The notes beneath the pieces were generated by a model that had not been told where the DNA came from, did no database searches, and saw only the letters and a program-made list of their open reading frames with translations. The translations under genes were made by a program, and so were the position numbers. From the NCBI GenBank assembly GCA_039583875.1, contig CM077153.1, forward strand, positions 112,960,568 to 113,024,567: DNA of 64,000 nucleotides. The letters run 5' to 3'. Shown in pieces: positions 12,968-49,738 of the stretch. This DNA is from Platanthera guangdongensis (taxonomy: Eukaryota; Streptophyta; Magnoliopsida; Asparagales; Orchidaceae). Within the stretch, counting starts at the first letter, position 1. Each line of letters starts with the position of its first letter.

Positions 12968-13575
12968 GATGGGTTACAGACTTAAGCGACCAAGCGAGCA
13001 GTTGCGCACGAAGCCCATTACTTTCCACATAGGGTCGCGAAAACTGTAAATCACATCACTCGAGTAGGATCGACAGACTGAATAAACCAAGCTCTGCGGA
13101 TTAGCTGAATACCATAGCAAAGTCCAGCTGAATTAAAAATCGAAAGCTTGCGGACTTAGCGAACACTAATTTTAAGTCCACACCTTTGTCTGCTAAAAGA
13201 AATGATTCATAACCAATGTGACCAAGTGAGCCGGTGCATGAAGCATTGCTTTCCTCACAGGGTCACAAGAGTTATGCAATCAACCCACTTCAGACTTAGG
13301 TGACCAAGCGGGCAGGTGCGCGTGCAGTGCTTTCCACGCAAGGTCACAAAAGCTGCCCACTCAAAAAGAGGGGAAGGATTCACTGCCTCTTGCATGGAGT
13401 ACATCCCAAGTTGATCTTTCTGGCAGGTGCGTGTGGCATTTCTTTCCCATAAGATCAACCCAGTTGTGGGTCTCCTGCAGGCACTGCTTGAGGGTTCCAA
13501 AGAGTGTTCGAGGGTCACGAACTAAGATGATCGGTGGGAAGGTGCATATAGGATTGCTTTCCACATGCGATCATC
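12968..13575 (-). other. Array of five covarying hairpins, element C
   Basis: C5 12968-13057 (outer stem GATGGGTTACAG with CTGTAAATCACATC), C4 13204-13281 (inner TGTGACC/GGTCACA and GTGAG/CTCAC), C3 13291-13354 (TGACC/GGTCA and GCG/CGC), C2 13411-13458 (TTGATCTT/AAGATCAA), C1 13526-13575 (GATGATCG/CGATCATC). Each encloses a motif close to GGAAAGCAATGCC and GCACCTGCC in element sense. Counterparts in D keep the pairing, in places through G-U pairs. Confidence 0.65.
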
Positions 13576-13845
13576 AAAGTTGTAACGATATCCCTTAAAG
13601 TGGCATAGTAGAGCTTAACACCCACCCTGTCCCTCCATAATGCAAAGGTGGGGTCAGGTACTAGCCGGGATCCGAAATTCAGTTTCCTACCACACTAGAA
13701 CCTGCAAGCTCCCACTACACGGTGCGAAATCTCCCCGCAACACGTGGTCTTCGTGGTGTTACGCTAATGACAACGGTTCTAAGGGAGGTTTATGCTGAAC
13801 TCGGTGATGTCTCTTGGAGTCAGTTATCCCTTTTTCTCAAGCTGT
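13572..13845 (-). other. Conserved non-coding block, element C
   Basis: About 260 bp, very similar to 36795-37047 in T and 48880-49130 in D. No long frame is open in it. In all three it lies directly on the gag/pol side of the hairpin array. Confidence 0.6.
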
Positions 13846-14047
13846 TAGGAAAAGGAAAACGCTTGAAAAGGTGTTAGTATGAGGTTTTGAGATATGAAAT
13901 AAAAACATATTTGATATAGAATCTTTAGGAAATGAACTGTTAATAAAAAAAACTAACGCTTTTGCGTTTATTCCCAAGATTAAAGATGAGGCCTGTTGGG
14001 ACTGTTTATTTTAAGCCGGAGAGGATGTCCAGCGTGCCTTTGCCTTT

Positions 14048-14945
14048 TTAGGCACCGGAGTGGGATGTAAAGATCCTTTGGACGGCATCACCAAAAATTC
14101 CCTGCTTCATCATCCTCTCCACTAGTTGTTTAAGAGCTTTACAATCTTCCGTCAAGTGACCCTTTCCTTTGTGATATTCACAATATTGATTTGAGTCCCT
14201 AGATTTCTGGCCTAGAGGCTGAAAGGATTCCTTGGAATCTTCTTTGTTTTTCATGGCACGGTCAAAAGTGCCTCACCCAGCACAAGAGTACTGGTCAGCA
14301 AAACTGATTAGCTCCTGATATGTTTTTCCCTTCTAAGGGTGGCTTTGAACTTGAACGGTCCTTCCTTTAATCCCTCAATTAGAGCACTTTTGTACACTTC
14401 TGGATTGGATTCCCTCACTTCAAGAACCTCCTTCTGAAATCGTCCGATGAAATGAGAGAGAGTCTCCTTTTCACGTTGTATTAACTGGAATAAAACTGAC
14501 GCGTGCTTTTCCCTTTTCGCAGAAGCAGAAATAGAAGTGTCTTGTATTGTCCTCAAGTGATTAGCAGGGTAAGCGACGAACTGAGGAGCTGGCCTTTCAG
14601 TCTGCAGAGGGGCTGCGGACTGCACAGGCGAGTAGTATGCCGAGCGGTTGTGCGAGTCGGCGTGCAAATAGGGCCGCGGGTAGGCTTGTACTCCTTGCGG
14701 ACAAGCAAGTGGATTAACAGGCGGACTGTCTACTACTGGCACCGACTTGACTGAGGAGATCAGGGCCATGCGGACTGTGGGTCTAGCCACTTGACAATAG
14801 CTCCCAAGATGTCATAAATCGCTGCGAACTGCAAACCGACGACGTGAGAAATTTTGTCAGTTTCTTCAGCTAACCGCATGACTGCTTCCCAAAGGGGATC
14901 CTTGCCGGGTTGAAGGTCAGATTGAGCGGTTTGGCGATCTGACAT
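14048..14945 (-). pseudogene. Gag remnant of element C, internally deleted and frameshifted
   Basis: Starts at ATG 14945 (MSDRQTAQSDLQPGKDPLWE), 29 bp after the primer-site motif. A frameshift near 14770-14790 and another near 14310 split it into three pieces. The end carries CEYHKGKGHLTEDC, a Gag zinc-knuckle-like motif (14190-14150). Compared with the Gag of T and F, the first half of the Gag core, about 100 residues from the FREPRIPFY region to the LLLRF region, is missing, and a proline-rich segment joins directly to SASAKREKHASVLFQ. Element D has the same junction, so the deletion was inherited by this subfamily. Probably not able to form particles by itself. Confidence 0.65.
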
Positions 14946-14973
14946 TCTGTCCGCAAACTTCAAAAAATAGCTT

Positions 14974-14994
14974 GATCTGAAGGTCGCGTGTTGA
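14974..14994 (-). promoter_or_regulatory. Primer-site motif, element C
   Basis: In element sense AACACGCGACCTTCAGATC lies directly after the LTR. The same 19 nt follow the LTRs of F and R and, with one change, D, and T has them too. Sequence beyond it diverges, as expected for a tRNA-complementary site. See the finding on internal tRNA priming. Confidence 0.5.
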
Positions 14995-15709
14995 TGTTGA
15001 TGCAGAAAATGCGCCCTCAAATTCCAGCTAAAAAGAGAAAAAGAGAGAAGGAGACTGCAAGCAGCTATCTACTAAGTGGATGAGAGAAAAAGAACAGCAG
15101 ATCCGTGAACCATGGTGACACCCGACTTCTCCCGTCGTGAACTGAATGCCTCTCCTCCGACGAGCTTTCCTTTTATTAACAATGAAGCAATTACAAGAGG
15201 AAAAAATGTAAACCGCACAAGCCGGCCGGACTGCAAGCCGCAAGGCACTAGACTTGACCCCCTAGCTCATAACAAGCGAGCTCCTGGAGACAAGTCAGCG
15301 TATCTTGAGGAGTGCACCCTCCCACTATTTATAGGCTCGGGGGCCTGCCCATGCGGTCAGAGCTAAATTTACCGGCTGCCCGAGGTACAGGAGAACCGGG
15401 CAGAGGTGATGGGAAGCAAATGAGCAGAAAAGGAGAAAGGAGGGAAGCCGCACGGCTTGCCGGATTCCTCCTGGCGAGCTGAATTCCTGGGTCCTGGGCC
15501 TTGGCGTTGAGCAGGGTCGGAACTGGCTGCGACCTAGCATGGAGGTCGTCTGGCTTCGCTGAGGTCAGCCTACTTGGTCTAAGCGGCGGCTAGAAGTAGC
15601 AGGCCGACAGCCTCTGATGACCGGCTGACTTGACAAGCTTGGCGGCTAGAAGAACTAGGTCGCCTTGTCTGGAAAGCTGTGCAACCGGTCGCGTATTTCG
15701 GGCATAACA
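14995..15709 (-). repeat. 5' LTR of element C
   Basis: 715 bp; in element sense it runs from TGTTATGCCCG to GCATCAACA. TATA box TATAAATAG at 15325-15333 (minus). A weakened version of the LTR hairpin is at about 15130-15165. Closest relative is the D LTR (714 bp). Confidence 0.75.
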
Positions 15710-18606
15710 GAGGGCATCATTTCTTTGAGCAGGGATAAGGGTCCAGTCACCTTGAGGAGTGTTTATCACGTACCGAGCATGAAGAAGAACCTCTTCTCTG
15801 TGACTAATGTAGTGGATGCAGGCTATCACGTTCTGTTCGACCTGACATAAGTGAAGTTTTTCTGCAATATGACAGTAGTGAAGGCTGGTGTTTCCATGTT
15901 AGGAGAAGGGCAAAGTACTTGTTAGGTTATCAACAAGTTCCTATGTTGATTGAATAAGAGCCAACGATAGCGCTACTATATGGCATGAATGACTGGGACA
16001 TGTCGAGATGGACAAGTTGAAAGCTATTACAGTACGGAGTCTTGTGAAAGGCTTGTCTAGGTTTTCATCCTTCGGCGACGATCATGTTTGTACGTGATGT
16101 CAATATGGAAAGTCTCGTTGCCTTCTAATTGACAAGTCACAGAGCAGGTGTAAAGCAACATTAGAGTGCATCCATGGTGATCTGATGGGATCCACCATCA
16201 TCGCCAGTCTTGGAGGCAGTAGATACATGTTGGTGTTGATTGATGACTATATGAGGTACACATGAGTATACTTTATGAAGGAAAAGTTGGATGCATTCCA
16301 ATTGTTTGTGGATTTCAATGAGCATGTGGAGGGATGGCTTGGCCTGAGAATTAAGAAGGTGAGAACGAACAACGGAGATGAGTTTGTTTCAAATGAGTTC
16401 TCTAACTTCTATAGAAGCACGTAATCCAGAGAGAGCTCAGCTGTACAAATACTCTAAAAGAAAATGGAGTAGCAGAGTGGAAGATCCGTCATCCGACAGA
16501 GACCTGCAAGTTTTGGCATTATGCCAAAGGCATTCCTAGGGCCTTTAGGTAGAAAGGATGGCCTGCGTAGCATATGTCATCAATCAAATTTATCTGAGTC
16601 TGATCAATATGAAGTCTCCTCATGAGATGATGTTTAGGGAGAAGCCCAGCATTGAACACCTTAGAGTGATTGGGTTGACCTGCTATGCATAAGTTCCCGG
16701 GACTAAGATGGGTATGGATCCTGCCACAAAAAAGTTTGTCATTTCGTGTGATGTTGTCCTTGACGAATTAACGTCGCATCGAGGTAGCGCATTTGTGGAT
16801 CTACAAGAAAACAGGTCATACAGCGAGGAAAAGGAAGCTTCTAGGGATCTTTTGGTGGAGCTTCCTATGTCACTAGGAGCTACAGGTGTTTCTAGCTCCG
16901 GGGTGGAGGCTTTTTGTTCAGGAAGCAGGGTGAGCGATGCTCCAAGTATGCACGGGATCGGAGCTGGTTCAGAAGAAATAATGGAGGTGGTTAGCCAAGG
17001 TCAGGTTCTTCGGAGTTCGAAGAGGATCATCAAACCACCAGCTTGGTTTAGCGAAGGGAACATGGTGAGCTTCGTATCTTGTTTCTACATAGGCCCACTG
17101 GATGAGCGAGAGCCTTCAAGCTTTGAAGACATCCCTAGAGTCAAGGAGTGGGATGATCCCATGGATGAAGAGGTGGCTGCCCTCAGATGTAACAAGACTT
17201 GGGATCTTGTGCCCAAGGTCGATAGAATTACTCCTGTGATGTGCAAGTGGGTGTACAAGCTGAAGAAGAAGGTTGATGGAAGCATCAAGCGATACAACGC
17301 TCGCCTTGTAGCTCGAGAATTCTCTCAATAGTAGAAGAATACTATGAGGAGACGTTTAGTCTTGTTGCTAAAATGACTATAGTTTTGGTGGTGATTTCCT
17401 TGGTGGCTTACCAAGGTTGGAAGATGTGCCAGCTTGATGTGATGAATGTTTTATTTGTAGAGAGATCGATAAAGACATCTTCATGGTTCATCCACCGGGT
17501 TACTTATCTGAAAATCGTCCTGGATATGTTTGTAATCTCTGGATAATCCATTATGGCTTGAAACAAGCACCACAGGCATGGTATGGGAAGATCGCAGAAT
17601 ACCTTTAGTTCTGAGGTTATTTTGCCTCTAATTTTGATTCTAGCCTATTCATAAAGAAGAAGGTGGATCTGCATGTCTTGGTGTTATTCTACGTTGATGA
17701 CATGATCATCAAAGGGAACTCTGAGGAGGAGGTAGCTTTGCTTAGAGCAGATCTGGATATTCATTTCGAGATGAAGGATTTGGGTGAGCTCCTCCACTTT
17801 CTTGGACTCTACGTAGAGAGGAGAAAGAGCGGCATACTTGTTTCCTAAAGAAGCTTTGCAGAATGGATCATTCACCAATTTGGCATGCAGGAGGAAAAGA
17901 GTTGTTCTACTCAACTGGATGCTGGTCTCAAGCTTCTACGTGATGAAGGGAGGGTTCTTTCAGATCCCTTGGTGTTTTCGGATCTAGTTGGAATAATTAT
18001 TTACTTGACGATTACGAGGCCAAACTTTGCTTATGTTGTAGGCTGAGTAAGTCATTATATGGCGGAGCCTCGGAAGCCTCACCTGGTAGCGGCCCGGAAT
18101 TTCTTGAAGTATGTGAAGTCTACTTCTAATATGAGGCTCCTTTATGGGAGTGATACGCGCTTCAACCTATACAGTTATACCGAAGCTGATTTTGGTGGAG
18201 ACTGAGACGATTGGAAGTCGACGTCTAGCAATTTTATCACATGAGGATTAATAGTTATCTCGTGGTGCAACAATAATCAAGATTCGGTGTCCGTCTCTAC
18301 CACGGAAGTGAGTATAAGGCTTCGTCCTTGGGAGGTCGGGAAACCATTTGACTCAGGACGCTAGTAAAGGACGTCCATAAGGAATTGTGGAGTCCCACTC
18401 TGCTCTACGGTAACAATGAAAGTTCCCTTAAACTGGTTAACTATCTAGTTTGTCACGCGCGGACCAAGCATATTGAGATTGAGCATCACTTCATTTTGGA
18501 AAAGGTGTTGTATTGGTCTCTTATGGCTCTGTATGGAGTCAGGACAATTTTGTGGATATCTTCACAAAGCCGCTATTGAATGGGCCATTTGAACAGTTAT
18601 GGGGAC
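15710..18606 (+). pseudogene. Copia Pol pseudogene, element S
   Basis: Degenerate Ty1/copia polyprotein with many stops and frameshifts. Order: GAG-pre-integrase region (15710-16140, LRSVYHVPSMKKNLFSV), integrase core (16160-16700, HGDLMG; the usual TDNG reads TNNG, a lost catalytic aspartate), reverse transcriptase (about 17090-17900, NKTWDLVPK, CKWVYKLKKK, LKQAPQAWY, and YVDD at about 17690), and RNase H to DIFTKP near 18560. Its 5' part is missing because element C interrupts it at 15709. It ends 2 bp before the LTR that starts at 18609, so that LTR is probably its own. Once encoded the enzymes for copying and inserting the element; not functional now. Confidence 0.8.
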
Positions 18607-28339: not shown

Positions 28340-29956
28340 TTATAACAACCGGAGCATCATTTTGAACGTCATCATTTTCTTTTCCAAAATTAGAAAAACA
28401 GAAATATCTTTTTCTTTATCTAAAGTAGATTTTTCATTTCCAAAAGTTGATTTATCATTTTCCGTGGGGTTAATTGTTTCCACAACAGGAGGGACAATCA
28501 CCTTTGGCTCTTCCCTGGTGGTGGGCTCGTTAATAACCTTACCGCTCCGAAGGGAAATCGCATTTGCGTGCTCTCTTGGGTTAGGTTCAGTGTTCGAGGG
28601 AAGAGTTCCAGGTGGTCTCGCGAAAAAAGCCTTGGCAAGTTGCCCGACCTGGTTTTCTAAACTTTTCACCGACTCTGTTAAGTTTCTAATAGTAGCATCA
28701 TTCGAGCTTATATATTTAGAAAGTATTTCCTCCAAAGATGGAGTTTTTTTGAAAATTTTGGTTTTGATATTGTGGTGGTGGTGGTGGAGTGAAATCATGT
28801 GGTAGACGTGCAACATTAGCAGGGTTACTCCAAGAAAAATTAGGATGGTTACGCCATCCAGGATTATAAGAGTTCGAAGAAGAATTAAAACCAGGAGGTG
28901 CAGAAAAATTAGAAAAACATAAAAATTATTGGCAGAATTATTTTGAGCAGGCCTGGGTATGTTTCCCAGATAATCCACCTGCTCGGCAGCAGCAGCATTC
29001 GCATTTTCATATACCTTAGCGGCGGAGGAAGCAGTCATCCCCGAAATCTTCTTGTTCAGCATTTCCACTTGCAACGCTAGTTGCAAAATCGAGTCCACCT
29101 CATAGATACCTGCAGGTTTATTTGGGAGAGTCCTAGGCGAGTTCCACTGAAAAGTGTTCATCGCCATGTCCTCTATAAGCTCAAGAGCGACTTCTGGAGT
29201 TTTGCGGTCCAAAGAACCAGCGGAAGCGGCATCTATCATTTGCTTAGTTTCTTGATTTAGCTCATTGAAAAATGTCTGAACCTGTAACCATATAGGCAGA
29301 GCATGATGGGGGCAGCTTCTCAAAAGTTCCTTAAACCTCTCCCAAGTGTCATAGCGGGTCTCTGAAGCAATTTGAGAGTACGAAGTTATATCATTTCTTA
29401 GCTTACCAGTTTTGGCAGGGAGGGGGGGGGGGGGGGTATAACGAGAGAGAAACTTTTCAGTTAAAATGTTCCAAGTAGTGATTGATCCTCTTGGAAGAGA
29501 ACTCAACCACCGTTTGGCTTTAGTTCTTAAGGAGAACGGGAAGAGTCTTAGCCTTATAGCATTGTCTGAGACACCATTTATTTTGAAGGTGTCACAGATT
29601 TCAAGAAAATTGGCAATATGCAAGTTCGGATCTTCATCTTGTAATCCGTCGAACTGTACATATTGCTGCACCATTTGTATGATGCTAGGCTTAAGCTCGA
29701 AGTTATTGTTCGCAATTGCAGGTCGAACAATTCTTGTTTCACTCCCCTCCAGGTTGGGTCGAGCATAATCGGACATGGTCCTTTGCTGAGCCATTCTTGG
29801 GTTGGGATCTCCCATTTCAGAATTAAAATTACAATCACCGTCGGAATCCTGAACCACTGTTTGAGAAGTGGAACCACTGAATCGTAAGTTTCTCCGAAAG
29901 GAGCGTTCAATTTCTGGGTCTAAGTCAACAAGTAGCGACGGATTCGTGCGGGTCAT
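28340..29956 (-). pseudogene. Gag of the Athila-like element
   Basis: Starts at ATG 29956, about 155 bp after the primer site. It opens with DPEIERSFRRNLR; the Gag core follows (IANFLEICDTFKINGVS, LRLFPFSLRTKAKRWLSSLP, ITTWNILTEKFLSRY, about 29560-29410), then QVQTFFNELN and MIDAASAGSL typical of Athila. A run of about 15 C in coding sense near 29420-29440 encodes a proline run. A stretch near 28900 reads as hydrophobic residues out of family character, suggesting a local frameshift pair. Near-complete in length but likely damaged. Forms the particle in the family. Confidence 0.8.
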
Positions 29957-31479: not shown

Positions 31480-33456
31480 ATGGCAAGGCTTGGAGCTTTC
31501 TTCTCTAGTCTCACTGCAAAAGGCGACACAGAACTGACAATGCCTATGAAGACCAAGAAGATAGCAAAGAGGTCGACAAAAAAGGATCTTGTCCGCCCCA
31601 CAGGAGAGAGTTCCCACAGCCAAAAGCCTGCAGAGAAAGCAGTCCGCCGAACCGACATATCTGCTCGCGAGGATGCCACAGTCGACGCTGAACCGTTGAG
31701 AAGTGAGAAGATGGTGACCCTGTCGGACTCTACCCCTTCCCAGAAAACTGCAACCTCGACGGACACCGTTGGTTAACACATTGAGGCTGTGATATCTTCT
31801 CCAAATGCCCAGGTGCCTATTGTTAACTTGGATGAAGAAGATAGGCGGACTGAGGAAGAGGACGACGCGCCCTCAAAGGCGTTGACTGCTGCGAACCCTG
31901 AGCCTGTCCGTGAAAACCAGCCCGACTTAGGGGGATCCGCAGTGGATTCTGCTGAGAAGACTGCTAAAAGAAAGAAGAGGAAGAGGGACGGGGCGACCGT
32001 CGCCGAGCGGGTTGAGAAGAAACTGCGCGCGATGAAGGAAAAGAACGTCTCCAAGCGGACTGGGGATGCAGACTTACAACACAGACCGCGCGACAAAGAA
32101 GTCCCTGACAGCGATCTGGTTACACCGGAGGCCCAAATCCAGGGAGATAATTCCCTTTCCACGGTCAGTCTAACCACTGATGAGATATTAGATTTGATAG
32201 ACGTCAACGAAGTAGATCTAATCAACGAATCCCTGCTGATTGTACATCAGCAATTTGATGCGGAGGCCACTGGGGATAAGGGTGACGAACTCCCTTCCTT
32301 GTCCGCTGCGGAGGAAGAGGAGAGAGAGAGGCTGAAGGAGAAGATAGAGGAGCAGAAGAAACAAATCGTTGCTCATGTTGCTGCGGTGGGGGCGGCCTCG
32401 AAGCAGGTCGCGACGGATAAAGCCGCTGAGGATCTGCGGATTGCTGCGGAGCTGCTGCGGTCAGGTAAACTTCAACCGCCGCCTAAATACTTTAAGCGTC
32501 AGTGGCTTTACAGGTCGCCGCCGCGGACGTCAAGACCAATCAAAATCATCACCAAGACAGACGATATTGTGGTTTCATCAAGTGCGGCTGCCGAGAAAAG
32601 AGCAAAGGTTCACCGTGAATGGAAGAAGCGGTTAAGCGCCTTTGACCCGGAGCGGTCAAGGCGGCCAATCATCTTCGATAGTCGGCAACTCGCTGCTGCT
32701 ATGTCTAAAAGTGATCTTTCATCCTTTCTTTGCGTCCGCCGCGAACTGCATTTGAATGTGAAATTGACTTTGTTTGTTGCAGGTAGAAAGTCGCCGCCGG
32801 GCTCCATCGAGAGTGACGAGATCGTGGTCACACCAAGTACTGGTGCTGACGCGGTCTCGCACGTGGAACCCGCGGGGGATGAGCCGCCCAGCCTGGATAT
32901 TATTAAAGAGTTAGAGAAGAAATTCCAAGCTGAAATGCAATGTGTTAAAGCAGAGTTAGAGAAGTCAGAGGAGCGCGAGAGGGCGTCCGCGGCGCGTGAA
33001 AAAGGGTCCGCTGAGCGCGAGAATGCCCTAAAAGACCAGATCGCCAGCATCTTGAGAGCGCTGGAGAGGTCTGAAAGGGAGAAGAAGAGGCTTGTGGATG
33101 ACGTCATATTCTATAAAGGCAAGCACTTGGCGTCAGCGCGCGAAGGAAAAGGGAAGCAGGCTGCTGAGGTCGTTGAGCAGAGGCCGCGAGTGTCAGATCG
33201 CGCTGCTCCAGAGATCGCCGCACCGGCAGGCGGTGTCCAACAATCTGCGGATGAGGAGCCGAGGTCGGCGACGGAGCCAATGGTGCCCCTCAGTCGGGTG
33301 GATCGGGAAGCTGCTCATATGCACCGGACCATAAATGTTATTCATCATCACCTCTGCCGCGTGTACAGCGAGATTCTACAGATAAGCGACCAAGCATCTC
33401 ATTTATGCAGAGACGGGGCAGAAAGGCCGGCGCGGACCGATAATAGGGACCGCTGA
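31480..33456 (+). pseudogene. aORF1 of element T: antisense coiled-coil protein, one internal stop
   Basis: One frame from ATG 31480 to TGA 33456, interrupted only by TAA at 31774-31776. The N-terminal 100 residues are basic and serine/threonine-rich. A segment near 32040-32110 (KRTGDADLQHRPRDKEVP) matches the A copy (EKTGADSLQHRPHEKEVL), proving homology. A charged coiled coil (about 32290-32420), a basic block ending ERSRRP, then a second coiled coil (about 32930-33110) follow. The last 65 residues (MVPLSRVDREAAHMHRTINV onward) are the conserved C-terminal domain. An AG acceptor-like site at 32782 may end an intron that is translated in the long frame. No match to a known enzyme. It runs convergent to gag-pol. 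Confidence 0.65.
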
Positions 33457-33912: not shown

Positions 33913-33974
33913 GGCCTTCTGCTTTCTCTTATGCAGGAAACAGCTGAAGTAAAAGGAACCCTACGGCCTGCAAA

Positions 33975-35832
33975 ATGGTCTCCGCGCGGACTGATGCTGC
34001 TGTCGCCTTCCACTCCGCAGATCAGCGGAAATGCACATTGATAGAGGCCGACCTGGATGCCTTTGTCAAAAAGTAGATGGCCAACTGAAATATCCTTGTC
34101 TGCCTTCCCGCCCATCAAGAGATGTTAAACTTCTCAACCGCAACCCAGATCGCCATCCCAGTGGACCATTTTGACAGCGGATTCAAGTTTCTGCTTCTAT
34201 GGGAACTCGCTACCATCTTCAAGCACTATGGAATGGTGCCTGGCCAGCTTGCGCTGAATACACTCGCTGCGATCTGCAGCTTTGTCTCTTACTTGCGATC
34301 TGAAAAGATCGCTTTTTCGATGAATGTCTTCCGCAAGATATTCTCTGTCCGCTCCATCACCGCTTCCGGAGGCCGCCCCTACAAGGGGGTGATATACTTC
34401 TACTGCAGCGGGATGAAGGTTGTGGGCCTTCCCAACAAAATCCACAACTGGACCTCTAGGTTCCTGATCTTCGAGGGCGACCTAGGGTTCGCGCACACCT
34501 ATCCGCAGGTGCGCGCGGACTCCGCCTTCAAAAGTGTGCAACTGGATGACTTAGAGTCCGCCATTGTCGAGTTTTTGGCCAACGCTAGGCTTGACATCGA
34601 GCATTATATTCCGCTGCTGGCGAGCTTAGCGGATGTCCTGCCTGAAGAGAGTAAGTGGCTTCCGAACTCAGCTTTTGCATCCGCCGCGACCATGGTGTTT
34701 AACCCATTTGATTTTTGAAGCGACCTTGGCGGTACCCGCCAACTTGCCGCAGACGCCTAGCGGCTTCGTCCCTTTACAGAAAGAGAAGAAAGAAGCAGTC
34801 ACGAGAAAGAGGAATGAGGAAGGGGATCCCGCAGCGGATTATTCATCCTCCGAAAGCTTCACCATGAGTGGCTTCGGCATCAGCCAGAAGGATCTTAGGG
34901 GGAACCCTATGGTCCACTGGCACAGCAAGAATAAACACGTCCGCCTATCCACCGCGCTTCCTTCGTGGAAGAGTCCGCGGATAACACGCCATGCCCACAA
35001 TGCGATCTCCGCGCTTTGCGGAAAGTGCAAATTGAGCGACCTTAAGAAGGTGCCCGCCGCCGACCTCCCTCTGCTAGCCTCTCAGGCCGCTGCGAACAGC
35101 GTGGTAACAAACTACTATGTTACCACCCTGGCCAGAGACCTGTTGAGGCAGAATGAACAACTTCAAAAGGATAATAAAGCGCTAAAGGAAAGGAATGTGC
35201 GGTTGGGAAAAAGGGTTGCTCATCAAAGAGAAGAGCTTGGGATTAGTTGAATTCGCAGCGGCCTTAGTTTGCTATCCGCCGCGATCTGTCTGACGTTTGC
35301 TTTTTGTTTTGCGCAGGTCGCCTATGACTTGGAAACCAACAACTTCCAGTCTGCCATGCTCCCTTTCGTGAAGGAGACCGTCGAGGTCGCCATTGAGCGA
35401 CTTGTCCGCGACGGCTTCATAAAGGAGGGAGTGGATGGCGTCCCTTTTTTGGAAATCTTCCCTGAGCTGGCTCCGCAGGTCGCGACGATGGAGAGGGCTA
35501 AAAAATGCAAGGATATCATTGAAGAAGAAGGCGAAGAAGAGGAAGAAGAAGACGAAGAAGAAGAAGTAGAAGTTGAAGAAGAAGACGGAGGGCAGGGCAA
35601 AGGGCAAAGTGACAAGGAAGACAATGCTGCCTCAAGACAGCGAGTAGAGGAACTGTCCGCCGAGTCCGACACCTCTGCATCCTCCTCTACTACCGGGAGC
35701 TCGCATAGCGGGTCCGCCTCGAGTACAGGATCAGATAGCAGTGGGAGCGGCTCGGGGGGCTACTCTCCAGAAGTTGATATTGTTGGCGACAGCCCTGCAC
35801 CTCCAGAAAAGAAACAAAGGACTACAGATTGA
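33975..35832 (+). pseudogene. aORF2 of element T: PF04195-like protein, two internal stops
   Basis: ATG 33975 (MVSARTDAAVAFHSADQRKC aligns with the A copy). Stops TAG at 34074-34076 and TGA at 34086-34088 break exon 1. Exon 1 ends at 34650 with donor GTAAGT (phase 1, as in A). Exon 2 starts at 34721 after TTTTTGAAG and reads to about 35250. Exon 3 starts at 35317 after GCGCAG. The donor of intron 2 is not clear. Conserved core: IAIPVDHFDSGFKFLLLWEL to SFVSYLRSEKIAFSMNVF. Tail: a long glutamate run, then a Ser/Gly-rich stretch ending EKKQRTTD, so acidic tail and terminal basic motif persist although the sequence has diverged. Same role as the intact copy at 1803-3602. Confidence 0.7.
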
Positions 35833-36485
35833 TTAATGTATTTTGATCATTTTTGGTTTTTGTAAAAGGGGCGGAAGAAGATCGCAGTCCGCCGAACATA
35901 TAGAATGATGTAAACAGTTTTTGATGAAATAGAAAGAAAGGATATTTTTGGCATGTGTGCTTCATGCAATGTTTTTTTTCCACGCTCACCGCACCGACAC
36001 TTAGCAGCCTGCACGACACGCTGATAAATCCCACAGCTTTTTATCTTGCTGATTAGAGACAATTATTGTCCGTCATTGGAATGAGAAGAATTTGTCAGGT
36101 GGACTCTGTTGAGTTTCAATTGCAGTCCGCACGACACATCATTTATAACGAATCTTGCTGATTAGAGAATTCAACTTATCAATCCATTCAATCAATATCC
36201 GCCTTAAAAAATGACGAAAATAGCCAGCTGATAACAATGTCAGGTGGTACTTCATTGAGTTCTAGTAGAGTCCGCAATTCTCTTTATTAACTTATCAAAC
36301 TATATGAAAACCATTCGGCGGACTGAGCGCATACAGAAAACCAATCCGCTCATAATAGAAATGGTCTATATAGCTCGTGCTCTCAAGAAAACCGTCGGAC
36401 TGAGTGTATAAAGAAAACCAGTCCGCCAAAGATAGAAATGATCTATAGCGATATAGAGAACCAATCCTCTCATAATACAAGAAAT
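35833..36485. repeat. aORF2 3' flank and degenerate repeats, element T
   Basis: No gene seen. At 36295-36480 there are about three copies of a unit with GAAAACCAGTCCGC and ATAGAAATGATCTATA; a further partial copy follows at 36575-36620. Confidence 0.55.
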
Positions 36486-36808
36486 GATTTATAGCTTGCG
36501 ACCAGGTGGGCAGGTGAGCCGGAGTGGCATACTTTCCTCACCGGGCTACAAGCTATAAAATCAACCCAAACAGGCGGACTGAGCGGATAGAGAAAACCAG
36601 TTCGCACATAATTCCCTGCGAAGAGCAAAATGCTCACTTGGCGGAACGGTTCCCTGCCCTCTTGCCTGGAGTACAGTCTAAGCTGTGGGTCTCCTACAGG
36701 CACTGCTCGAGGGTACCATGGAGTGTTCGAGGGTTACAAGCTAAGATGACCCGCGGGCAGGTGAGCCGAAATGGCATACTTTCCTCACGCGATCATCGAA
36801 GTTGTAAC
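36486..36808 (-). other. Two conserved hairpins, element T
   Basis: T2 36486-36562: TATAGCTTG pairs with CAAGCTATA (9 bp), extended by GATTT/AAATC. T1 36733-36808: outer GTTACAA/TTGTAAC, inner GATGA..CG/CG..TCATC. In element sense both loops read GGAAAGTATGCC and GCTCACCTGCCC, a variant of the motif in C and D. A decayed third copy may lie at 36600-36660. Confidence 0.65.
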
Positions 36809-37047
36809 GATATCCCTAATGCGGCATGGTAGAGCTTTACTCCCACCCAGCCCTCCATAATGCAGTGGTGGGGTCAGGTACTTGCCGAGATCCGAAGTCC
36901 AGAATCCAACCGCACTAGAGCCTGCAAGCTCCCACTACGCGGTGCGAAATCTCCTCGCAACATGTGGTCTTTGTGGTGTTATGCTAATGACAACAGCTCT
37001 AGGGGGGTCTTGCTGAACTCGGTGATGTCTCCTGGTATCAGGGAACC
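36795..37047 (-). other. Conserved non-coding block, element T
   Basis: Matches 13572-13845 (C) and 48880-49130 (D) closely, while gag and LTR sequence of these elements differ much more. No open frame runs through it. Confidence 0.6.
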
Positions 37048-37297: not shown

Positions 37298-40200
37298 TCA
37301 AGAATAGAACCGTTTGAGATCATCCCCGCTCCATGTGTGTGGTATATCCTCTCCTTCGTATGTCTGCAAGCGGTAAGCGCCGCTCTTTAACGCTTCTTTG
37401 ATAACAAAAGGGCCGGCCCAATTTGGATTAAGCTTTCCAGTTGAACCAGCTCTTGCAGCAGCATCTATCTTCTTTAGAACGAGATCTCCCACTTGGAAGT
37501 GTTTGATCCTCACGTTCTGATCAAAGTAGCGGGCCATCCTTCTTTTGACCTCCTACTGCCTTATGACTGCTTGATCTCTGATGGCCTCGATGTGTTCCAA
37601 GCTGAACCTTGTCTCTTCATTGTTCAACTCAAGCCAGTCCTCAACGCCTTCTCTTGCAAGCAGAACTCTGGGTGACGGGACTTCAACCTCAACTGGGATA
37701 AGTGCCTCTGAGCCATGAGAAAGTTTGAATGGAGTCTCCCCAGTTGCGGATGATGGTGTTGTCCTAAGGGACCATAGGACTGATGGAAGCTGATCATCCC
37801 AACTGCCCTTGAGATTCTGCACTTTCTTTTTGAGCAAATTGAGGATCTGCTTGTTGGCTGCTTCTACTTGGCCATTGCTTCTGGGATGATGAACTAATGC
37901 AAACCGCAGCTCTGTTCCGATCTGCCTGCAAAAATCTATCATCTCGGAGTTGTTGAATTGTGGCCCATTATCAGTGATTATAGCCATTGGAATTCCATGC
38001 CGACAGACAATCTCCCCCCAAATGAAGTTTCTGACGACCTGAGTAGTTGTCTTAGCCAATGCCTTGGCTTCGATCCACTTGCTGAAGTAGTCGATCATTA
38101 AGATGATGAAACGCCGCTGACTGCTTGCTATGGGAAAAGGACCGAGGAGGTCCATTCCCAAAACTGCGAAGGGCCAAGTAGTTGCAATCGATCTGAGGGA
38201 CTGAGCTGCTTGGTGCTGAAGTGGAGAAAACTTTTGGCACTGAACACACTTTCTGGCATAGATCTCAGAGTCTCTCTTCATAGTGGGCCAGAAATATCCC
38301 TGCCGCAGGATTCGTTTTTCAAGAGTTCTTGCTCCCGAGTGGCTTCCACACTCTCCTGAATGAACCTCTTGCAAAACAGTGAAAGCCTCTTCTTCTGAAA
38401 CACACAGGGCCATGGTAGAGTGGAAAGTTTTTCTGTAAAGGACTCCCGCCAATAGGAAATAGTGAGCTGCTTTTATTCTAAACTTTTTCTTATCTCTGAC
38501 TGTATGATGATAATCTCTCGTTGACAGATAGAAGATGAATGGGTCCATCCAAGAGGTACGTTGGTCTACTTTCATCAAATCTCCTTCCACCACTGCCGGG
38601 CGGAAGAGCTCGGAAGTTGTTCCTCCTGAAGGCATCCCATACTTGGAAAGAAAATCGGCCTCCTCATTTTCTGTTCTGGGGATGTGCTCGATGGTAAAGC
38701 TCTTGAACCTACCGACTTCTACTTTCACAAGAGCTAGGTATTTCTTCAATATCGGCTCTCTTGTTTCGAAGTTACCGAGGACTTGTGACGCCATCACCAG
38801 AGAATCGGTTTTGATGTGAACATGATCGATTCCTAGTTCTCTTGCGAGCCTCAAGCCTGCTAGCAAAGATTCATACTCTGCCTGATTATTGGTTACTGGA
38901 AAGTAAAATTTGATGGCCTGCTCTAACTTGACTCCGTTTGGATTGATGAGAACTACCCCTGCTCCGGAAGAACTTCTGCCTGAGGCACCATCAACATAGA
39001 TGGTCCAAGCCAAAGGTGACCTTTCTGCCCGATCAGGACTGGACTCTGGCATGTCGATTAGAAAATCTGCTAGGACCTGAGCTTTAATGGCTGTCTTGGG
39101 CACATAAGAGATTTCAAATTCACTCAACTCTATTGCCCACTTAGCTAGTCTGCCGGAATGTTCTGGTTTTTCTAACACACCCTTCAAAGGCTGATCGGTG
39201 ATGACTTGAATTGAATGTGCTTGGAAGTACGGACGGAGCCTGCGAGCTGACATGACTAGCGCCAAGGCTAACTTCTCCAAAATTTGATACCGTGTCTCAA
39301 CACTCTTCAGGATATGGCTAACATAGTAAATTGGGAATTGCTTTCTGCTCTCTTCCCGGAGAAGAACGGAGCTGACGGCCTCAGGGCCAACCCCTACGTA
39401 AAAGAAAAGAATCTCTCCTGGCCGAGGAATCTGAAGCAGGGGTGCTGAGGTCAGTTGCATCTTCAACTGCTCAAAAGCTTGGGAGCATTCTTCCGTCCAC
39501 TCAAATTTGGAGGCTCCTCGGAGAGTTTTGAAGAACGGAGCACTCCTATCTCCAACTCGAGAGAGAAATCTCGCAAGGCCTGCCATCCTCCCCCCTAACT
39601 GTTGAGCTTCTTCTGGCGAACGAGGGGCAGGCATATCAAGGATGGCTTTTACTTTATCAGGATTGGGGGCAAGTCCTTCCGGAGTAAGGAGATGACCAAG
39701 AAACTTCCCCTTACTCGCCCCAAACGTACATTTCAAAGGATTGAGCTTCATTTTGTACCTACGCAGAGTAGCGAACGTCTCTGCTAGGTCTCGCAAGTGC
39801 AGCGAAAATGACTTACTCTTAATCAAGAGATCGTCTACATACACTTCTAGGTTCCTCCCCTTCTGATGGTTAAACACACGGTCCATCATCCGTTGGTAGG
39901 TTGCACCGGCATTCTTAAACCCAAAGGGCATCACAAGGTAGCAATAACAACCATCATTAGTAATGAACGACGTGTGAGGAACGTCGGGCTTATGCATTCT
40001 AATCTGGTGATAACCCGAAAACGCATCTAAAAAACTCATATAAGAGTATCCTACCGCGGAATCAAATAAAGAATCTATCTGAGGCAAGGGGTAGCAATCT
40101 TTAGGGCATGCTTTATTAAGTTTGGTAAAATCTATACACATTCGTCATTTTCCCCCTGGTTTCTTAACCATTACAACATTAGAAATCCAAGTAGAATATT

Positions 40201-41236: not shown

Positions 41237-42760
41237 CTAGTATGCCTCAGCTACTTCTTTGCCCTTTGAGGTGGATGGCTTCGAAGAAGAAGGAGAATCC
41301 TTCTTGGCTAAGTCGATCTTGCCCTCGGCAAGCAACTTCTCTATCAGCGTGCGAAGGGCCTTGCAGTCCTCAGTCAAATGGCCCTTTTCTTTGTGGAACT
41401 GGCAAAATTGTGCATTATTCCTTGGTTTCCACATTTTCTGAGGCTCTTGCCTCTTTTCTTCTGATCTCCTTTGCAAGATCTGGATGACTTCGTCCAGGTC
41501 CAGATCTGCAATGTCATCCATGGGGCTTGCATCCGATTGGATCGGAGCAGGCAAGGATGCTTGTTGGAGCATGGGTAGAGCTTGCAATGGAACGGAGGGA
41601 GTGGCGGCCAACGACAGTCTCTGCTCATGAAACTGTTGATGGCCTTGGAATGGTTTCTTGTTGCGGAAGTTCCTGCCTCTTTGAGACGGAGGCTGGAAGT
41701 CTGGGCGAGGGGGCTTGCCACGAGAGGAAGAAGAGGAGGCATCCCTTCCTTCAGCCTTAGCTGTCAGGGATGAGACATAAGTTGGATTGGCATTTTCTCC
41801 TTCAATGAAACAGTTGACCATGGCGATCAACTCTTGATAAGTCTCAGGTGCCTTGGTTGTTGCTCTAAACTTCAGAGGGCCTTCCCGGAGGCCATGGATC
41901 AAGGCGACCTTATAATAATTGGGGTTTACATTCCTGACCCCTTGGATCTCTCTATAAAAGCGATCAACGAATCGCGCCACTAATTCATTATCCCTTTGCT
42001 TGATTTCAAATAGGGCAGCTGGCCCATACTTCCTCTTCCTTGAGTTAGCAAACCTCAGCAACAACTGGCTACGAAGCTCTACGAAAGAAGAGATTGTGAC
42101 CGAAGGCAGCTCGTAGAACCACTCTCTCGCTTGCCCTTCGAGAGTGGTAACCAGGAGTTTACACTTGATAGCATCTGAGAGGCATCTCAAAGCAACTGCC
42201 CCCTCAAATGCTTGGAGGTGAGAGACTGGATCAGTCCCTCATGAATAGAATGGGATGCGAGGCTCCCTGAAGTTGCTCGGAGCCGATTCCCATCGGATTC
42301 GGTCAACAAAGGGAGACGGGGTCTCGAACTCTGCGGGGTAGATGGGGCGGACTGGAGCCGTGGAGTCCACGGGCTCGGCGGACTGGCGGTCAGCAAAATG
42401 AAGCTTGCGGGCAGGAGTGCCCCTGGCAGCTTCTCTGAAGAAATTTATGAAAGCAAACTGCTACTCCTGAGGGCGCAGAGGGGCGGCGGACTGAGCAGGG
42501 TTCCGAGGAGTTGTTGGCGACTGCCGAAGAGGAGTTCGGCGAGCTGGGGTCTGGCGGACTGGCGAGTCCGCTGGGTCCGCTGCAGCCTGAGGAGCAAGCC
42601 GCTGGGCCAGCGCGAGCAGAGCTTGGCTGATTGCGTCAAGACGCTGGTCGGTCTGCTGGCGGGACTGCTCGGCCTCAAGGCGAGCTAGCTCAATTGCGTC
42701 CCAAAGAGAGTCCTCTGAAGAGCTGGAGCGGTCTGAGGAGCGGGCTCTGCGGTCTGACAT
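41237..42760 (-). pseudogene. Gag of element T
   Basis: Frame from ATG 42760 (MSDRRARSSDRSSSSEDSLW), 30 bp after the primer-site motif. Stops: TAG at 42461-42463, TGA near 42240, and TAG at 41237-41239 at the gag/pol junction. The first two look like mutations of Gln and Arg codons; the last may be natural, since pol continues in the same frame. Gag core: HLQAFEGAVALRCLSDAIKC, AREWFYELP, LRSQLLLRFANSRKRK, FVDRFYREIQGV, ALIHGLREGPLKFR. Zinc-knuckle-like CQFHKEKGHLTEDC at about 41390. Forms particles and packages RNA in the family. Related to the gag pieces in F, D, C, R and A. Confidence 0.85.
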
Positions 42761-45519: not shown

Positions 45520-46218
45520 TGTTAACCCTTCAGTCTGCAACACCTACAAGATTCCAAGGTCACCTATTTCATTAATCGCGGACTCAATTTGGCAGTTCGC
45601 CTGGCCCGGCGATGCCTCAGCATAGTTCCAAGGTCCCTGGATTGTGATAGGCGGACTCGGTTTGGCAGTCCGCCAAGCTCGGCATAGCGGCGGCATTCAG
45701 CCATCCCAAGTATGATCCCCAGCGGCAGACTCAATGCTCTGTCTGCCCAGTTCGCCATGCCTTTGGATCTCTGGATTGATTCCACTTTGGCGGACGCAAT
45801 GCCCAGTCCGCCCACGCCGCCGTCCTCCAGTAGGATCGCGCCTAGAAGCAGTAGATGGAAGCTCCAGCCCGCGATCCAAGTTCGTCACTTTTGCGTGGAC
45901 TAGCGTGTTCTTTCTTTTTTGCTTCCCGTCACCGTTGCCCGGATCTCCTGTACCCCGGGCTGCCGGTTATTTTAGCCCTGCTCGTTTGGGCAGGCCATCA
46001 TCCTATAAATAGGGGGGAGGTGGTGCACCCATGGCACACTAACTCGAGTCCAGAGGCGCATTTAGTGAAAGCTGCGTACTCGGATCTCGGACCTTGCGGT
46101 CTCGAATCTGTCGTGATCACCCTTTTCCCTTGTTCCATTAATAAACGGTTGCTTACAGTTTCCTTCTCTCTTTTTCCCCTTTTTACCGGAATTTGAGGGC
46201 GCATTTTTTGCATCAACA
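45520..46218 (+). repeat. 5' LTR of element F
   Basis: About 699 bp, TGTTAACCC to GCATCAACA. TATA box TATAAATAG at 46004-46012. The hairpin found in the other LTRs is missing, apparently lost with part of the region after 46090. Confidence 0.7.
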
Positions 46219-46239
46219 TCAACACGCGACCTTCAGATC
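46219..46239 (+). promoter_or_regulatory. Primer-site motif, element F
   Basis: AACACGCGACCTTCAGATC, preceded by TC, directly after the LTR. Confidence 0.5.
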
Positions 46240-46268
46240 CAAACTATCGTTGAAACTCGCGGACCGAG

Positions 46269-46995
46269 ATGTTAGATCGCTGATCATCTCATTACAATGC
46301 CCGTTCAGGTCGCTCTAGCACCTCCGATGACCCGCGGGACGCGCTCGACCGATGCCGAAGAGAGGCCGAACAGTCCCGGAGAGAGATCGACTAGCGCCTC
46401 GACGCAATCAGCCAGGCCCTGGTCGCACTTACTCAGCGACTCGATCAGCCTAGAACGGCCTTCGCGGATGAGGCAGTCCGCCAAACCCCAACCCGCCAAG
46501 CGCCTGCTGCGACGCCACTGCCAGCCAGCACGTCCATCCATCCCGCAGTTCCACCGAGGCCGCAGACTGACGAGCTCGCTCCACTTATGGATTTTTTCCG
46601 AGTAGTAGCTAGAGAGGCTCCTTCCCGCAAACTTAACTTTACTAAGGATGACCAGGTCGAGCGGCCTCCTATGATTTCTACTGTAGCTCAAGCCGGGGAG
46701 TCCCCTTTTGTTGATAAGATCCGTCAGGAGCAGGCTCCTAATAACTTCAGAGAACCTCGCATCCCATTTTACACTAGAGAAACAGACCCGATCGCTCATC
46801 TACAAGCCTTTGAAGATGTTGTAGCAATGAGGTGCTTGTCAGATGGTTTGAAGTGCAAGTTCTTATTAACCACTTTCGATGACCAGGCGCGAGAATGGTT
46901 TCTTGAACTATATCCCAGATCCATCGCCAGTTTTGTCGAGCTACGCCAAGAGCTCCTGCTAAGGTTTTCCACTTCAAGGAAGAGGAAGAGTGGAC
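46269..46995 (+). pseudogene. Gag fragment of element F
   Basis: ATG 46269 lies 30 bp after the primer-site motif. Early stops: TGA at codon 5, and a TAG where T has CAG (DQRLDAIS). Then open from 46587: NNFREPRIPFYTRETDPIAH, LQAFEDVVAMRCLSDGLKC, AREWFLELYP, LLLRFSTSRKRK. This is the first half of the Gag core, closest to T. Cut at 46995 by the LTR of D. Non-functional. Confidence 0.75.
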
Positions 46996-47709
46996 TGTTA
47001 AGCCTAGAATCCGCGACCTGTTCGCGCAGCTTTCCAGACCGGGCGGCCTGTGCGGCTAGCCGCATTTTCAGATCAGCTCATCTAGTTATCACCGAAGCCG
47101 GGCGGTCTCCATGTCAGGCCGGCGCCAGCGCCGACCCTGCTCAGCGGCAAGGCCCAGGACCCAGACCATCAGCTCGCCAGGAGGAATCCGCCAGGCCGCG
47201 TGGCTTCCCGTCTTTCCGTTTTTCTGCTCATTTACTTCCCCTCACCACTTCCCGGTTCTCCTGTACCCCGGGTAGCGGGTAACTTTAGCCCTGCCCACTT
47301 GGGCAGGCCCCTAGGCCTATAAATATGGGGAGGGTGCACACCCCAAGACGCGATGACTTGTCTCCAGGAGATCTCTTGTTAAGAGTTGTGGTCTCAAGTC
47401 TAGTGTCTTGCGGCTTGCAGTCCGGCCGGCCTGTTCGGTTTCCTTTTTCTCTTCTTGTAACTGCTTCACTTTTAATAAGGAAAGCCCGTCGCAAGAGAGG
47501 CATTCAGGTCGCGACGGGCGAAGTCGGGTGTTGCCGTGGTTCACGGCTCGACTGTTCATTTTTCTCTCGTCCTCTTAGTAGATAACTGCTTGCATTCTGC
47601 CTCTTTCCCCTTCCTTCCTTCCCCCGTGCTCGAACCGTTAGCTAGTGGTGCTCGACCCCCTATCCGTTTTCGTGCATCGACAGTGAGGGCGCATTTTTTT
47701 GCATCAACA
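46996..47709 (+). repeat. 5' LTR of element D
   Basis: 714 bp, TGTTAAGCCTAG to GCATCAACA. TATA box TATAAATAT at 47318-47326. Hairpin stem GCCCGTCGC/GCGACGGGC at 47484-47492 and 47511-47519. Confidence 0.85.
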
Positions 47710-47731
47710 GTTAACACGCGGCCTTCAGATC
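47710..47731 (+). promoter_or_regulatory. Primer-site motif, element D
   Basis: GTTAACACGCGGCC then TTCAGATC, directly after the LTR; one base differs from the other copies. Confidence 0.5.
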
Positions 47732-47759
47732 CAGTCATTTTTTGAAGTCTGCGGACAGA

Positions 47760-48659
47760 ATGTCCGATCGCCAGACCGCTCAACCTGACCTTCAACCCAG
47801 CAAGGATCCTCTTTGGGAAGCAGTCGTGCGGTTAGCACAAGAAACTGACAAAATTTCTCATGTTGTCGGTTTGCAGTTCGCCGCGCTGTACGCCGTCTTG
47901 GGAGCTATTGTCAAGCGGCTAGACTCGCAGTCCGCACCAACACAGGTCTCCTCCATCAACTTGGCGCCCGCAGTGGAAAGTCCTCCTGTTAATCCACTTT
48001 CTTGTCCGCAAGGAGTACAAGCCTACCCGCGGCCCTATCCGCGCTCCTACGTGCAAAACCGCCCGGCATCCTACTCGCCTGTGCAGTCGGCAGCCCCTCT
48101 GAATGCTGAAAAACCAGGTCCTCAGTTCGTCGCTTATCCTCCTAATCACTTGAGGAAAATGCAAGATACTTCTGCTTCTGCTTCTGCGAAAAGGAAAAAG
48201 CACGTGTCAGTTTTATTCCAGGCAAAACAGCGTGAAAAGGAGACTCCCTCTCATTTCATCAGACGATTTCAGAAGGAGGTTCTTGAAGTTGGGGAAGCCA
48301 ATCCAGAAGTGTAAAAAATTGCACTAATTGAGGGATTAAAGGAAGGACCGTTCAAGTTCGAAGCCAGCCTCAGAAAATAAAAAACATATCAGGAGCTAAT
48401 CAGCCTTGCTGATCAGTACTCTCGTGCTGGGAGAGGCACTTTTGACCGTGTCATGAAAAGCAAAGCAAGTTCCAAGGAATCATTTCAGACTCTGTGCTAG
48501 AAATCCAGGGACTCTAATCAATATTGTGAATATCACAAAGGAAAGGGTCATTTGACGGAAGATTGTAAAGCTCTTAAGCAACTAGTGGAGTGGATGATGA
48601 AGCATGGAAAGTTTGGTGATGCCGTCCAAAGGGTCTTTACATCCCCCTCCGAAACCTGA
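47760..48659 (+). pseudogene. Gag of element D, internally deleted
   Basis: ATG 47760 (MSDRQTAQPDLQPSKDPLWE), 28 bp after the primer-site motif. One frame to 48659 with a TAA at 48312-48314 and further stops near 48377 and 48498. A proline-rich middle (PRPYPRSYVQNRPASYSP) joins directly to SASAKRKKHVSVLFQAKQRE, so the first half of the Gag core present in T, F and R is absent. The second half (FIRRFQKEVLEV, ALIEGLKEGPFKF) and the zinc-knuckle-like CEYHKGKGHLTEDC remain. The shared junction with C shows that the deletion predates both insertions. May rely on Gag supplied by relatives. Confidence 0.7.
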
Positions 48660-48879
48660 AAAGACAAAGGCATGCTGGACACCCTCTCCGGCTTGGAATA
48701 AATAGGCTAAAAGGGCCTCATCTTAAATCATGGAAGTAAACCCAAACGCGTTAGTTTGTTTTTATTACAATTCATTTCCTAAAGTTTCTATATCGAATAT
48801 GTTTTTAAATCATATCTCAAAACCTCATACTAACATCTTTTCAAGCGTTTCTCTTTTCTTAACAGCTTGAGAAATAGGG

Positions 48880-49130
48880 ATAACTGACTCCAAGAGACAT
48901 CATCGAGTTTAGCGTAAACCTCCCTTAGAACTGTTGTCATTAGCGTAACACCACGAAGATCACGTGTTGTGGGGAGATTTCGCACCTTGTAGTGGAGCTT
49001 GCAGGTTCTAGTGCGGTAGGAAACTGAATTTCAGATCCCGGCTAGTATCTGACCCCACCTATGCATTATGGAGGGACAGGGTGGGAGTTAAGCTCTACTA
49101 TGCCACTTTAAGGGATATCGTTAAAACTTT
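48880..49130 (+). other. Conserved non-coding block, element D
   Basis: Matches C and T in the same position. Includes CACCACGAAGATCACG, GGAGCTTGCAGGTTCTAG and GGAGGGACAGGGTGGGAG. Confidence 0.6.
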
Positions 49131-49738
49131 GATGATCGTGTGTGGAAAGCACTGCCGCGCGCACCTGCCCATCGATCATCTTAGTTTGTGACCATCGAAC
49201 ACTCTTTGGAACCCTCAAGCAGTGCCTGCAGGAGACCCACAACTGGTTGATCTTATAGGAAAGCAATGCTATACGCACCTGCCAGAAAGATCAACTTGGG
49301 TTGTACTCCAGGAAAGAGGGCGGTGAATCCCTCCCCTCTTTTTGAGTGGGCAGCTTTTGTGATCTTGCGTGGAAAGCACTGCCACGTGCACCTGCCTGCT
49401 TGGTCATCTAAGTCTGGAGTGGGTTGATTGCATAACTTTTGTGACCCTGTGAGGAAAGCAATGCTTCATGCACCTGCCCACTTGTTCACATTGGTTATGA
49501 ATCATTTCTTTTAGCAGACAAAGGTGTGGACTTAAAATTGGTGTTCGCTTAGTCCGCAAGCCTTCAATTTTCAATTCAGCTACACTTTTCTATGTTCTTC
49601 AGCTAATCCGCAGAGCTTGGATTATTCAGTCCGTCGAGCCTACTTGGGTGATGTGGGTTACAGTTTTCGCGACCCTGCGTGGAAAGCAATGGGCTTCGTG
49701 CGCACCTGCCGCTTGGTCGCTTAAGTCTGTAACCCATC
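49131..49738 (+). other. Array of five covarying hairpins, element D
   Basis: D1 49131-49180 (GATGATCG/CGATCATC), D2 49247-49294 (TTGATCTT/AAGATCAA), D3 49351-49416 (TGATC/GGTCA with one G-U pair, then GCG/TGC), D4 49426-49503 (CATAAC/GTTATG outer, TGTGA/TCACA inner), D5 49650-49738 (GGGTTACAG/CTGTAACCC outer, GCGACC/GGTCGC inner). Loops keep GGAAAGCA.TG and GCACCTGCC while stems change. Confidence 0.7.

Follow-up and report, generated by a model that had tools for sequence, protein, structure and literature searches.

Retand-type elements and their hairpins

We analysed a family of hairpins in long terminal repeat (LTR) retrotransposons of the orchid Platanthera guangdongensis, using a stretch of 64,000 nt (CM077153.1, positions 112,960,568-113,024,567, forward strand; the whole stretch is called the window) and the genome to which it belongs (4.246 Gb searched, 274 contigs). 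The original prediction had placed 14 hairpins in the window, in the elements called A, C, T, D and R here, and all 14 were found where they had been described (Table 1). A covariance model (R1), the check proposed at the time, was built from 42 MAFFT-aligned hairpins of the window and of fetched loci. In the window R1 returned the 14 hairpins with E values from 4.2e-25 to 2.3e-15, partly by construction because they belong to its training set, and not one further match up to E=10. Across 33 sources comprising 300 kb, R1 gave 178 matches at E<=0.1; this count includes four hairpins twice, since locus L004 lies inside L050, and the tree analyses used distinct rows. The core pattern of the family occurred 8 times in the window and in none of 100 dinucleotide shuffles. 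Folded as single-stranded RNA, 11 of the 14 hairpins reached z <= -2 (200 shuffles each). A loose pattern scan combined with duplex energies was discarded as too noisy.

The words said to be shared by all 14 hairpins proved to be a core common to the family, and identity in every copy did not hold: the T hairpins carry CTCACCTGCC and a longer loop, the 3′ cores of C1, C4 and C5 are altered, and there are differences in the loops of D5 and C5. At the gathering thresholds of Rfam release 15 the hairpins belong to no family, and at loose thresholds the best sub-threshold match in the D array had an E value of 0.29. The sole Rfam match of the window lies away from the hairpins. It is the plant C/D-box small nucleolar RNA snoR71 (RF00097) at 29299-29404 (+), with 51.2 bits against a gathering threshold of 40, and it sits within, and antisense to, the gag open reading frame (ORF) 28340-29956 (-) of another retrotransposon.

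By their domain content the hosts are assigned to the Retand-type (Tat) LTR retrotransposons, as had been proposed. A second RNase H (aRH) between RNase H and integrase is described for Tat/Retand elements (PMC6317226). Among the window elements only T has a pol match adjoining its hairpins; this pol has the order RT_RNaseH (255-342), RVT_3 (384-501) and Integrase_H2C2 (583-639) in a Pfam scan, in which we read RVT_3 as the putative aRH; this order agrees with Retand and also with Ogre. An antisense TRP28 (PF04195) ORF between pol and the 3′ LTR is also described for Retand elements (PMC11963269), and such a domain was found at 2838-3602 (-). Within the antisense region of element D some 700 bp are duplicated in tandem with 94% identity (52275-52972 and 53004-53701).

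Table 1. Hairpins and associated features of the window (R1, bit score and E value of the covariance model; z, folding score).
Feature	Position	Strand	Evidence
Hairpin A, single hairpin of pol-less element	787-877	+	R1 69.9 bits, E 2.6e-18; z -3.31
Hairpin C5	12964-13058	-	R1 66.4 bits, E 3e-17; z -3.34
Hairpin C4	13197-13286	-	R1 80 bits, E 2e-21; z -5.17
Hairpin C3	13287-13367	-	R1 64.4 bits, E 1.2e-16; z -1.03, alternative fold preferred
Hairpin C2	13390-13478	-	R1 60.3 bits, E 2.3e-15; z -3.55
Hairpin C1	13505-13594	-	R1 70 bits, E 2.5e-18; z -4.51
Hairpin T2	36479-36567	-	R1 62.1 bits, E 6.4e-16; z -4.75
Hairpin T1	36724-36816	-	R1 63.3 bits, E 2.8e-16; z -2.84
Hairpin D1	49112-49201	+	R1 74.2 bits, E 1.2e-19; z -1.70
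Hairpin D2	49228-49315	+	R1 63.6 bits, E 2.2e-16; z -2.90
Hairpin D3, only model positions 13-78 matched	49351-49416	+	R1 64.2 bits, E 1.5e-16; z +0.66, alternative fold preferred
Hairpin D4	49421-49510	+	R1 92 bits, E 4.2e-25; z -3.48
Hairpin D5	49649-49742	+	R1 70.4 bits, E 1.9e-18; z -4.81
Hairpin R, single hairpin of pol-less element	59943-60033	+	R1 68.7 bits, E 5.9e-18; z -2.05
pol ORF of T (reverse transcriptase, RNase H, second RNase H (RVT_3), integrase), upstream of T1-T2, same strand	37553-40141	-	Pfam scan
gag ORF of T	41237-42190	-	PF03732, E 2.6e-9
TRP28-like antisense region of T, downstream of hairpins	33972-34655	+	tblastn with window TRP28 ORF
Further antisense ORF of T, 555 aa, without Pfam match	31789-33456	+	Pfam scan
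Antisense ORF with TRP28, downstream of hairpin A	2838-3602	-	PF04195, E 2.8e-8
Antisense TRP28 region of R	61911-62662	-	tblastn
Antisense TRP28 region of D, merged matches over internal duplication	51638-53127	-	tblastn
Antisense TRP28 remnant of C	10707-11020	+	tblastn
gag similarity of D, merged matches, upstream of D1; no pol match between gag and hairpins	46827-48671	+	tblastn
gag similarity of C, upstream of C1	14099-14523	-	tblastn
gag similarity of R, upstream of hairpin R; no pol match between	58658-59431	+	tblastn

A constant core on covarying stems

RNAalifold found no pairs on the mixed alignment, and the structure was therefore assigned by hand. It consists of 5 + 6 outer pairs and 3 inner pairs, followed by GG/CC, AG/CU and UGC/GCA. 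The "constant loop" described earlier is more precisely an asymmetric, nearly invariant internal loop (GG-AA-AG-CAA-UGC / GCA-C-CU-G-CC) together with a small apical hairpin. With clusters weighted equally, the information content is about 1.5-2.0 bits per column at AAAG, at A41 two columns further, at UG and at CACCUGCC, and 0.28-1.73 bits per column in the outer stem. This conservation of the core is partly due to ascertainment because the loci were found via the core, a bias eased only in part by the use of model matches.

The stems differ between hairpins and nevertheless pair, as had been predicted for one hairpin family, and they covary beyond what the tree explains. Within the 42-hairpin alignment 85.9% of the cells are paired, compared with 79.8% after shuffling and 32-40% in slid registers, and the covariation score of 0.266 (shuffled, 0.170) was reached by 0 of 500 shuffles. 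Among 98 hairpins with an exact core, the two arms of one hairpin align better with each other (score 30.6) than do arms swapped between hairpins (23.6). On a tree of 144 distinct hairpins, in which the 14 outer pairs were scored, internal branches carry 8 double changes that keep pairing; partner shuffles of the same columns gave at most 5, so that none of 1000 reached this number. A structure-blind MAFFT alignment still yielded 6 double changes (reached by 1 of 1000 shuffles) and 43 pair-keeping changes (0 of 1000). Covariation beyond phylogeny, whose absence had been named beforehand as one of two refuting outcomes, is thus present within this genome.

The comparison of orthologous hairpins, to which the original prediction had also appealed, contributes little. 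Between C and D and between A and R (6 hairpin pairs), all 9 differences at paired sites do keep pairing (37 differences are unpaired), as had been claimed for C and D, but the fold had been chosen to fit both sequences. Taken alone, this comparison is nearly uninformative; the informative covariation is that between hairpins and between families.

Position, abundance and retention in defective families

The main core pattern, in which some positions were left open, has 2207 matches in the whole genome (1061 + 1146) and the T-type core 1247 (623 + 624); controls with reversed patterns had none. A slightly tighter core pattern (YA for NA) matched 11 stretches (L051-L061) in a prokaryote collection of about 60 times the genome size, which we take as chance, and nothing in IMG/VR.

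The anatomy of the arrays was tallied by hand in 20 ten-kb loci (L031-L050) from listed places on the sequences C1 and C2 (not the hairpins so named). An integrase or integrase tail lies 260-532 bases upstream of the first hairpin on the same strand in 16 loci; L046, where an integrase match is found about 3.4 kb off beyond a foreign insert, is a doubtful seventeenth, and no upstream integrase was found in L043, L044 and L048. Downstream of the array an antisense ORF (aORF)/TRP28 was present in 15 loci and not found in L031, L033, L035, L040 and L043. Wherever integrase and antisense gene were both seen close by (12 of 20 loci) the array lies between them, which, together with element T, bears out the predicted position between convergent genes. 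In all 16 clear loci the core and the integrase share a strand.

Arrays of these loci comprise 3-13 hairpins, those of the window elements 1, 2 or 5, and towards the end of its locus L043 has a second array, with 7 hairpins. Many arrays begin with what is recognisably one and the same hairpin, with the stem GATGATC. Some arrays repeat in tandem with a period of 142 or 137 bp; a tandem-repeat search of the window did not report the C and D arrays as such. Other repeats accompany the hairpins: tandem repeats of 36 bp (497-768 in A, 59733-59932 in R) immediately precede the single hairpins of these two elements, and tandem arrays based on the palindrome GTGTCGACAC, with periods of 19 to 109 bp, lie on the antisense-gene side of Retand elements (window 9997-10562 and L031:2350-2508). 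A sequence of about 2.3 kb, found at four different Retand positions (L044:438-2763, L046:5605-7919, L050:1265-3570 and L042:89-2248), is probably another mobile element.

Hairpins are retained in families which have lost coding regions. In the C/D and A/R elements tblastn detected gag similarity and TRP28 besides the hairpins, but no pol match in between. The L043 element consists of LTR-like sequence and leader, a short gag-pol stub, the very end of the integrase tail and a post-pol region with 13 hairpins; gag, pol and aORF queries had no match in it at 1e-6, and its last 1.5 kb before a run of 500 N matches nothing among the fetched sequences. Its junction (301 bases) was matched over at least 290 bases with 83-100% identity at 26 of the 41 listed places, on 11 chromosomes, with 40 of 1049 first-look candidates scored. 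Among four dispersed copies of this deletion family (1.8 kb each), L063 carries 6 hairpins, L064 3 (one weak) and L065 3. The stretches L043:2125-4624 and 7551-10000, each LTR-like sequence plus hairpin array, are 95% identical and stand in tandem 5.4 kb apart. As the deletion ends differ between L043 and C/D, at least two separate deletions would have kept the hairpins. Retention in families without pol or without gag-pol fits a cis-acting requirement of the element RNA, without proving it, and would be compatible with a packaging signal of the retroviral type.

A putative docking element on sense RNA

A Watson-Crick pair becomes G-U or A-C on the element-sense strand by one transition each, and the G-U:A-C ratio is therefore a test for sense RNA. 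Changes from Watson-Crick to G-U and to A-C numbered 24 and 14 on internal branches and 24 and 43 on terminal branches, which we take to represent mostly the decay of inserted copies. Of 20 trees, namely the original one and its 19 bootstraps, 16 gave a significant difference (Fisher p<0.05), as did the structure-blind alignment (21:13 internal vs 26:43 terminal, p=0.035). In addition, 15-16 changes from G-U to Watson-Crick occurred on internal branches. Embedded mismatches of 48 cluster modal hairpins gave 44 G-U to 8 A-C, compared with 45:20 in swapped arms; three coarser clusterings gave 15:2, 8:1 and 8:2, against 18:10, 13:7 and 10:6 for swapped arms. Selection on structure as RNA or as DNA had been left undecided in the original prediction; these counts moderately favour an action as sense-strand RNA and do not prove it, some other measures having no strand preference.

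We propose that the hairpin arrays are a cis-acting, post-transcriptional protein-docking element on the sense genomic RNA of Retand elements, with a probability of roughly 0.55. The proposal was made because known docking elements look similar: here an asymmetric internal loop stays constant while the stems that carry it can be replaced, and such units, mostly more than one, lie in the 3′ portion of the RNA of a retroelement. Between 1 and 13 units would stand in the untranslated stretch from integrase to the convergent antisense TRP28 gene; the long variable stem would serve as a scaffold presenting the invariant internal loop, to which a candidate protein (the element's Gag, the antisense-encoded protein or a host factor) could dock, several units together giving avidity. 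TRP28, the usual neighbour of the arrays, is a possible binder; for the L043 family, having no recognisable aORF, it would be needed in trans. By analogy we infer both the docking and the RNA step served, which would most likely be export, stability or packaging of the full-length RNA. Among the roles suggested earlier, RNA packaging is possible, and 3′-end formation and a site for an aORF protein are less favoured. As a kissing or dimer partner of the core in sense RNA, the core complement GGCAGGTG was rejected, with one occurrence in 200 kb where about 3 were expected.

A number of results speak against this proposal. Four of the 20 trees did not reach p<0.05. Isolated mismatches of the 98 exact-core hairpins (19 G-U to 10 A-C) resemble those of swapped arms (17:8), within families there is no asymmetry (22 G-U and 29 A-C distinct variants), which we read as decay after insertion, and the sense fold beats the antisense fold in just 26 of 48 cluster modal hairpins. 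In alignment A1, which includes misregistered and decayed copies, G-U (43 vs 78 shuffled) and A-C (36 vs 61) are about equally depleted. The pair-keeping fraction of internal-branch changes (0.57) was matched by 142 of 1000 partner shuffles. Three of the 14 window hairpins fold no better than chance (49112-49201, z -1.70; 13279-13367, z -1.03; 49339-49428, z +0.66), the best fold of the last, the D3 region, being another structure. Conservation of the A/R hairpin, part of which was fixed by the search, is not clearly above that of the flanking sequence (shared variants: 6 over 60 columns in the hairpin, 204 over 1151 in the flanks). Finally, L062, one of the four deletion-family copies, has no hairpins, and the structure prediction for TRP28, with a predicted local distance difference test (pLDDT) value of 36 from 8 sequences, was of no use.

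The equal depletion in A1 and the lack of a strand difference in exact-core mismatches, within-family variants and fold energies would agree with a function at the level of DNA, either as a hairpin or cruciform or as a site for the antisense-encoded TRP28 protein, whose gene follows the array in 15 of 20 loci and for which DNA binding is predicted (PMC11963269). We consider this doubtful: double-stranded recognition should conserve the stem sequence, yet the stems vary; the core is asymmetric and keeps to the integrase strand; the G-U:A-C ratio is higher on internal than on terminal branches; and the L043 element has no recognisable aORF. The location between integrase and antisense genes would also suit 3′-end formation or a transcription block between convergent gag-pol and TRP28 units. 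This is unlikely, since the sense genomic RNA must read through the arrays to the 3′ LTR, the strand signal points to sense RNA and would have to be on the other strand to serve an antisense transcript, and L043 has 13 hairpins without a recognisable antisense gene.

Selection on structure would not be required if template switching during reverse transcription corrected imperfect palindromes and tandem duplication multiplied them. One arm could conceivably be copied onto the other, and the arrays built of 142- and 137-bp repeats are in line with duplication. Such an origin is nevertheless improbable in view of the near-invariant, non-palindromic core, the stepwise changes via G-U on internal branches and the divergent units of the C and D arrays, most of which still pair. 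Least probable is a source of small RNAs, microRNA (miRNA)-like or small interfering RNA, arising by host targeting or acting as a decoy: an excess of small RNAs is reported at strongly structured regions of maize Sirevirus copies (PMC10760457, citing Bousios 2016), but variable stems with a conserved inner loop are the reverse of a miRNA precursor, and the D array has only sub-threshold matches to miRNA families (E 0.29 and worse).

The arrays correspond in region, lineage, tandem organisation and antisense TRP28 neighbour to the Retand tandem repeats described by Vicient (2025, PMC11963269), which occur in about half of the recently active elements, with TRP28 antisense in 97% of Retand clusters, and whose origin and function are called unknown in that account. 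There the repeats are described as family-specific, whereas the units found here have a common fold and core in the different families; the words "hairpin", "stem" and "secondary structure" were searched for in the main text of PMC11963269, with 0 hits. No report of these hairpins was found in the literature searched, which covered few subscription papers. Both monocots and eudicots harbour Retand elements. With a conserved fold, the long region from pol to the 3′ LTR acquires a function that can be tested, and the motif model can be applied to the genomes of other plants. The motif may be of limited occurrence, because maize Ty3 elements are described as generally lacking an obvious peak of miRNA-like structure (PMC10760457).

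Repeats and dyads with partial likeness are found in other retroelements. The palindromic motifs of Sirevirus LTRs are multicopy dyads in plant LTR retrotransposons, like the hairpins described here, and have been suggested to be regulatory; according to the description available they are short, lie mainly in LTRs and have a constant symmetric CGG-CCG core (PMC2829016), whereas the orchid hairpins have variable stems and a constant inner loop and lie outside LTRs. The direct repeats (DR) of Rous sarcoma virus likewise stand outside gag-pol, at least one is kept in replicating strains, and effects on RNA accumulation and stability are reported; they are 115 nt long and flank src, and a pattern of constant loop and variable stem is not part of the description in the source as available (PMC3856414). 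The RTE of IAP and the MTE of musD, both from mouse elements, are cis-acting RNA structures exporting full-length LTR-retrotransposon RNA; in plants this export is said not to have been studied directly (PMC12786077).

A further likeness, by description, is with the constitutive transport element (CTE) of Mason-Pfizer monkey virus (MPMV), a stem-loop RNA of the 3′-untranslated region in which repeated identical internal loops serve as docking sites (PMC4377836); judged by sequence and position, the orchid arrays would likewise be 3′-untranslated RNA structures with repeated identical internal loops. One can speculate, and we do so tentatively, that the arrays are a plant counterpart of Rev/RRE or the CTE, a multivalent array on the full-length RNA whose invariant internal loop would be bound by TRP28 or Gag, and which would control export or packaging, with gag-pol-less relatives riding in trans; if so, the Retand tandem repeats would be RNA docking arrays. 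The viral element as described has two loops in one stem and recruits NXF1 (PMC4377836), while the orchid elements have one loop per hairpin and one to many hairpins.

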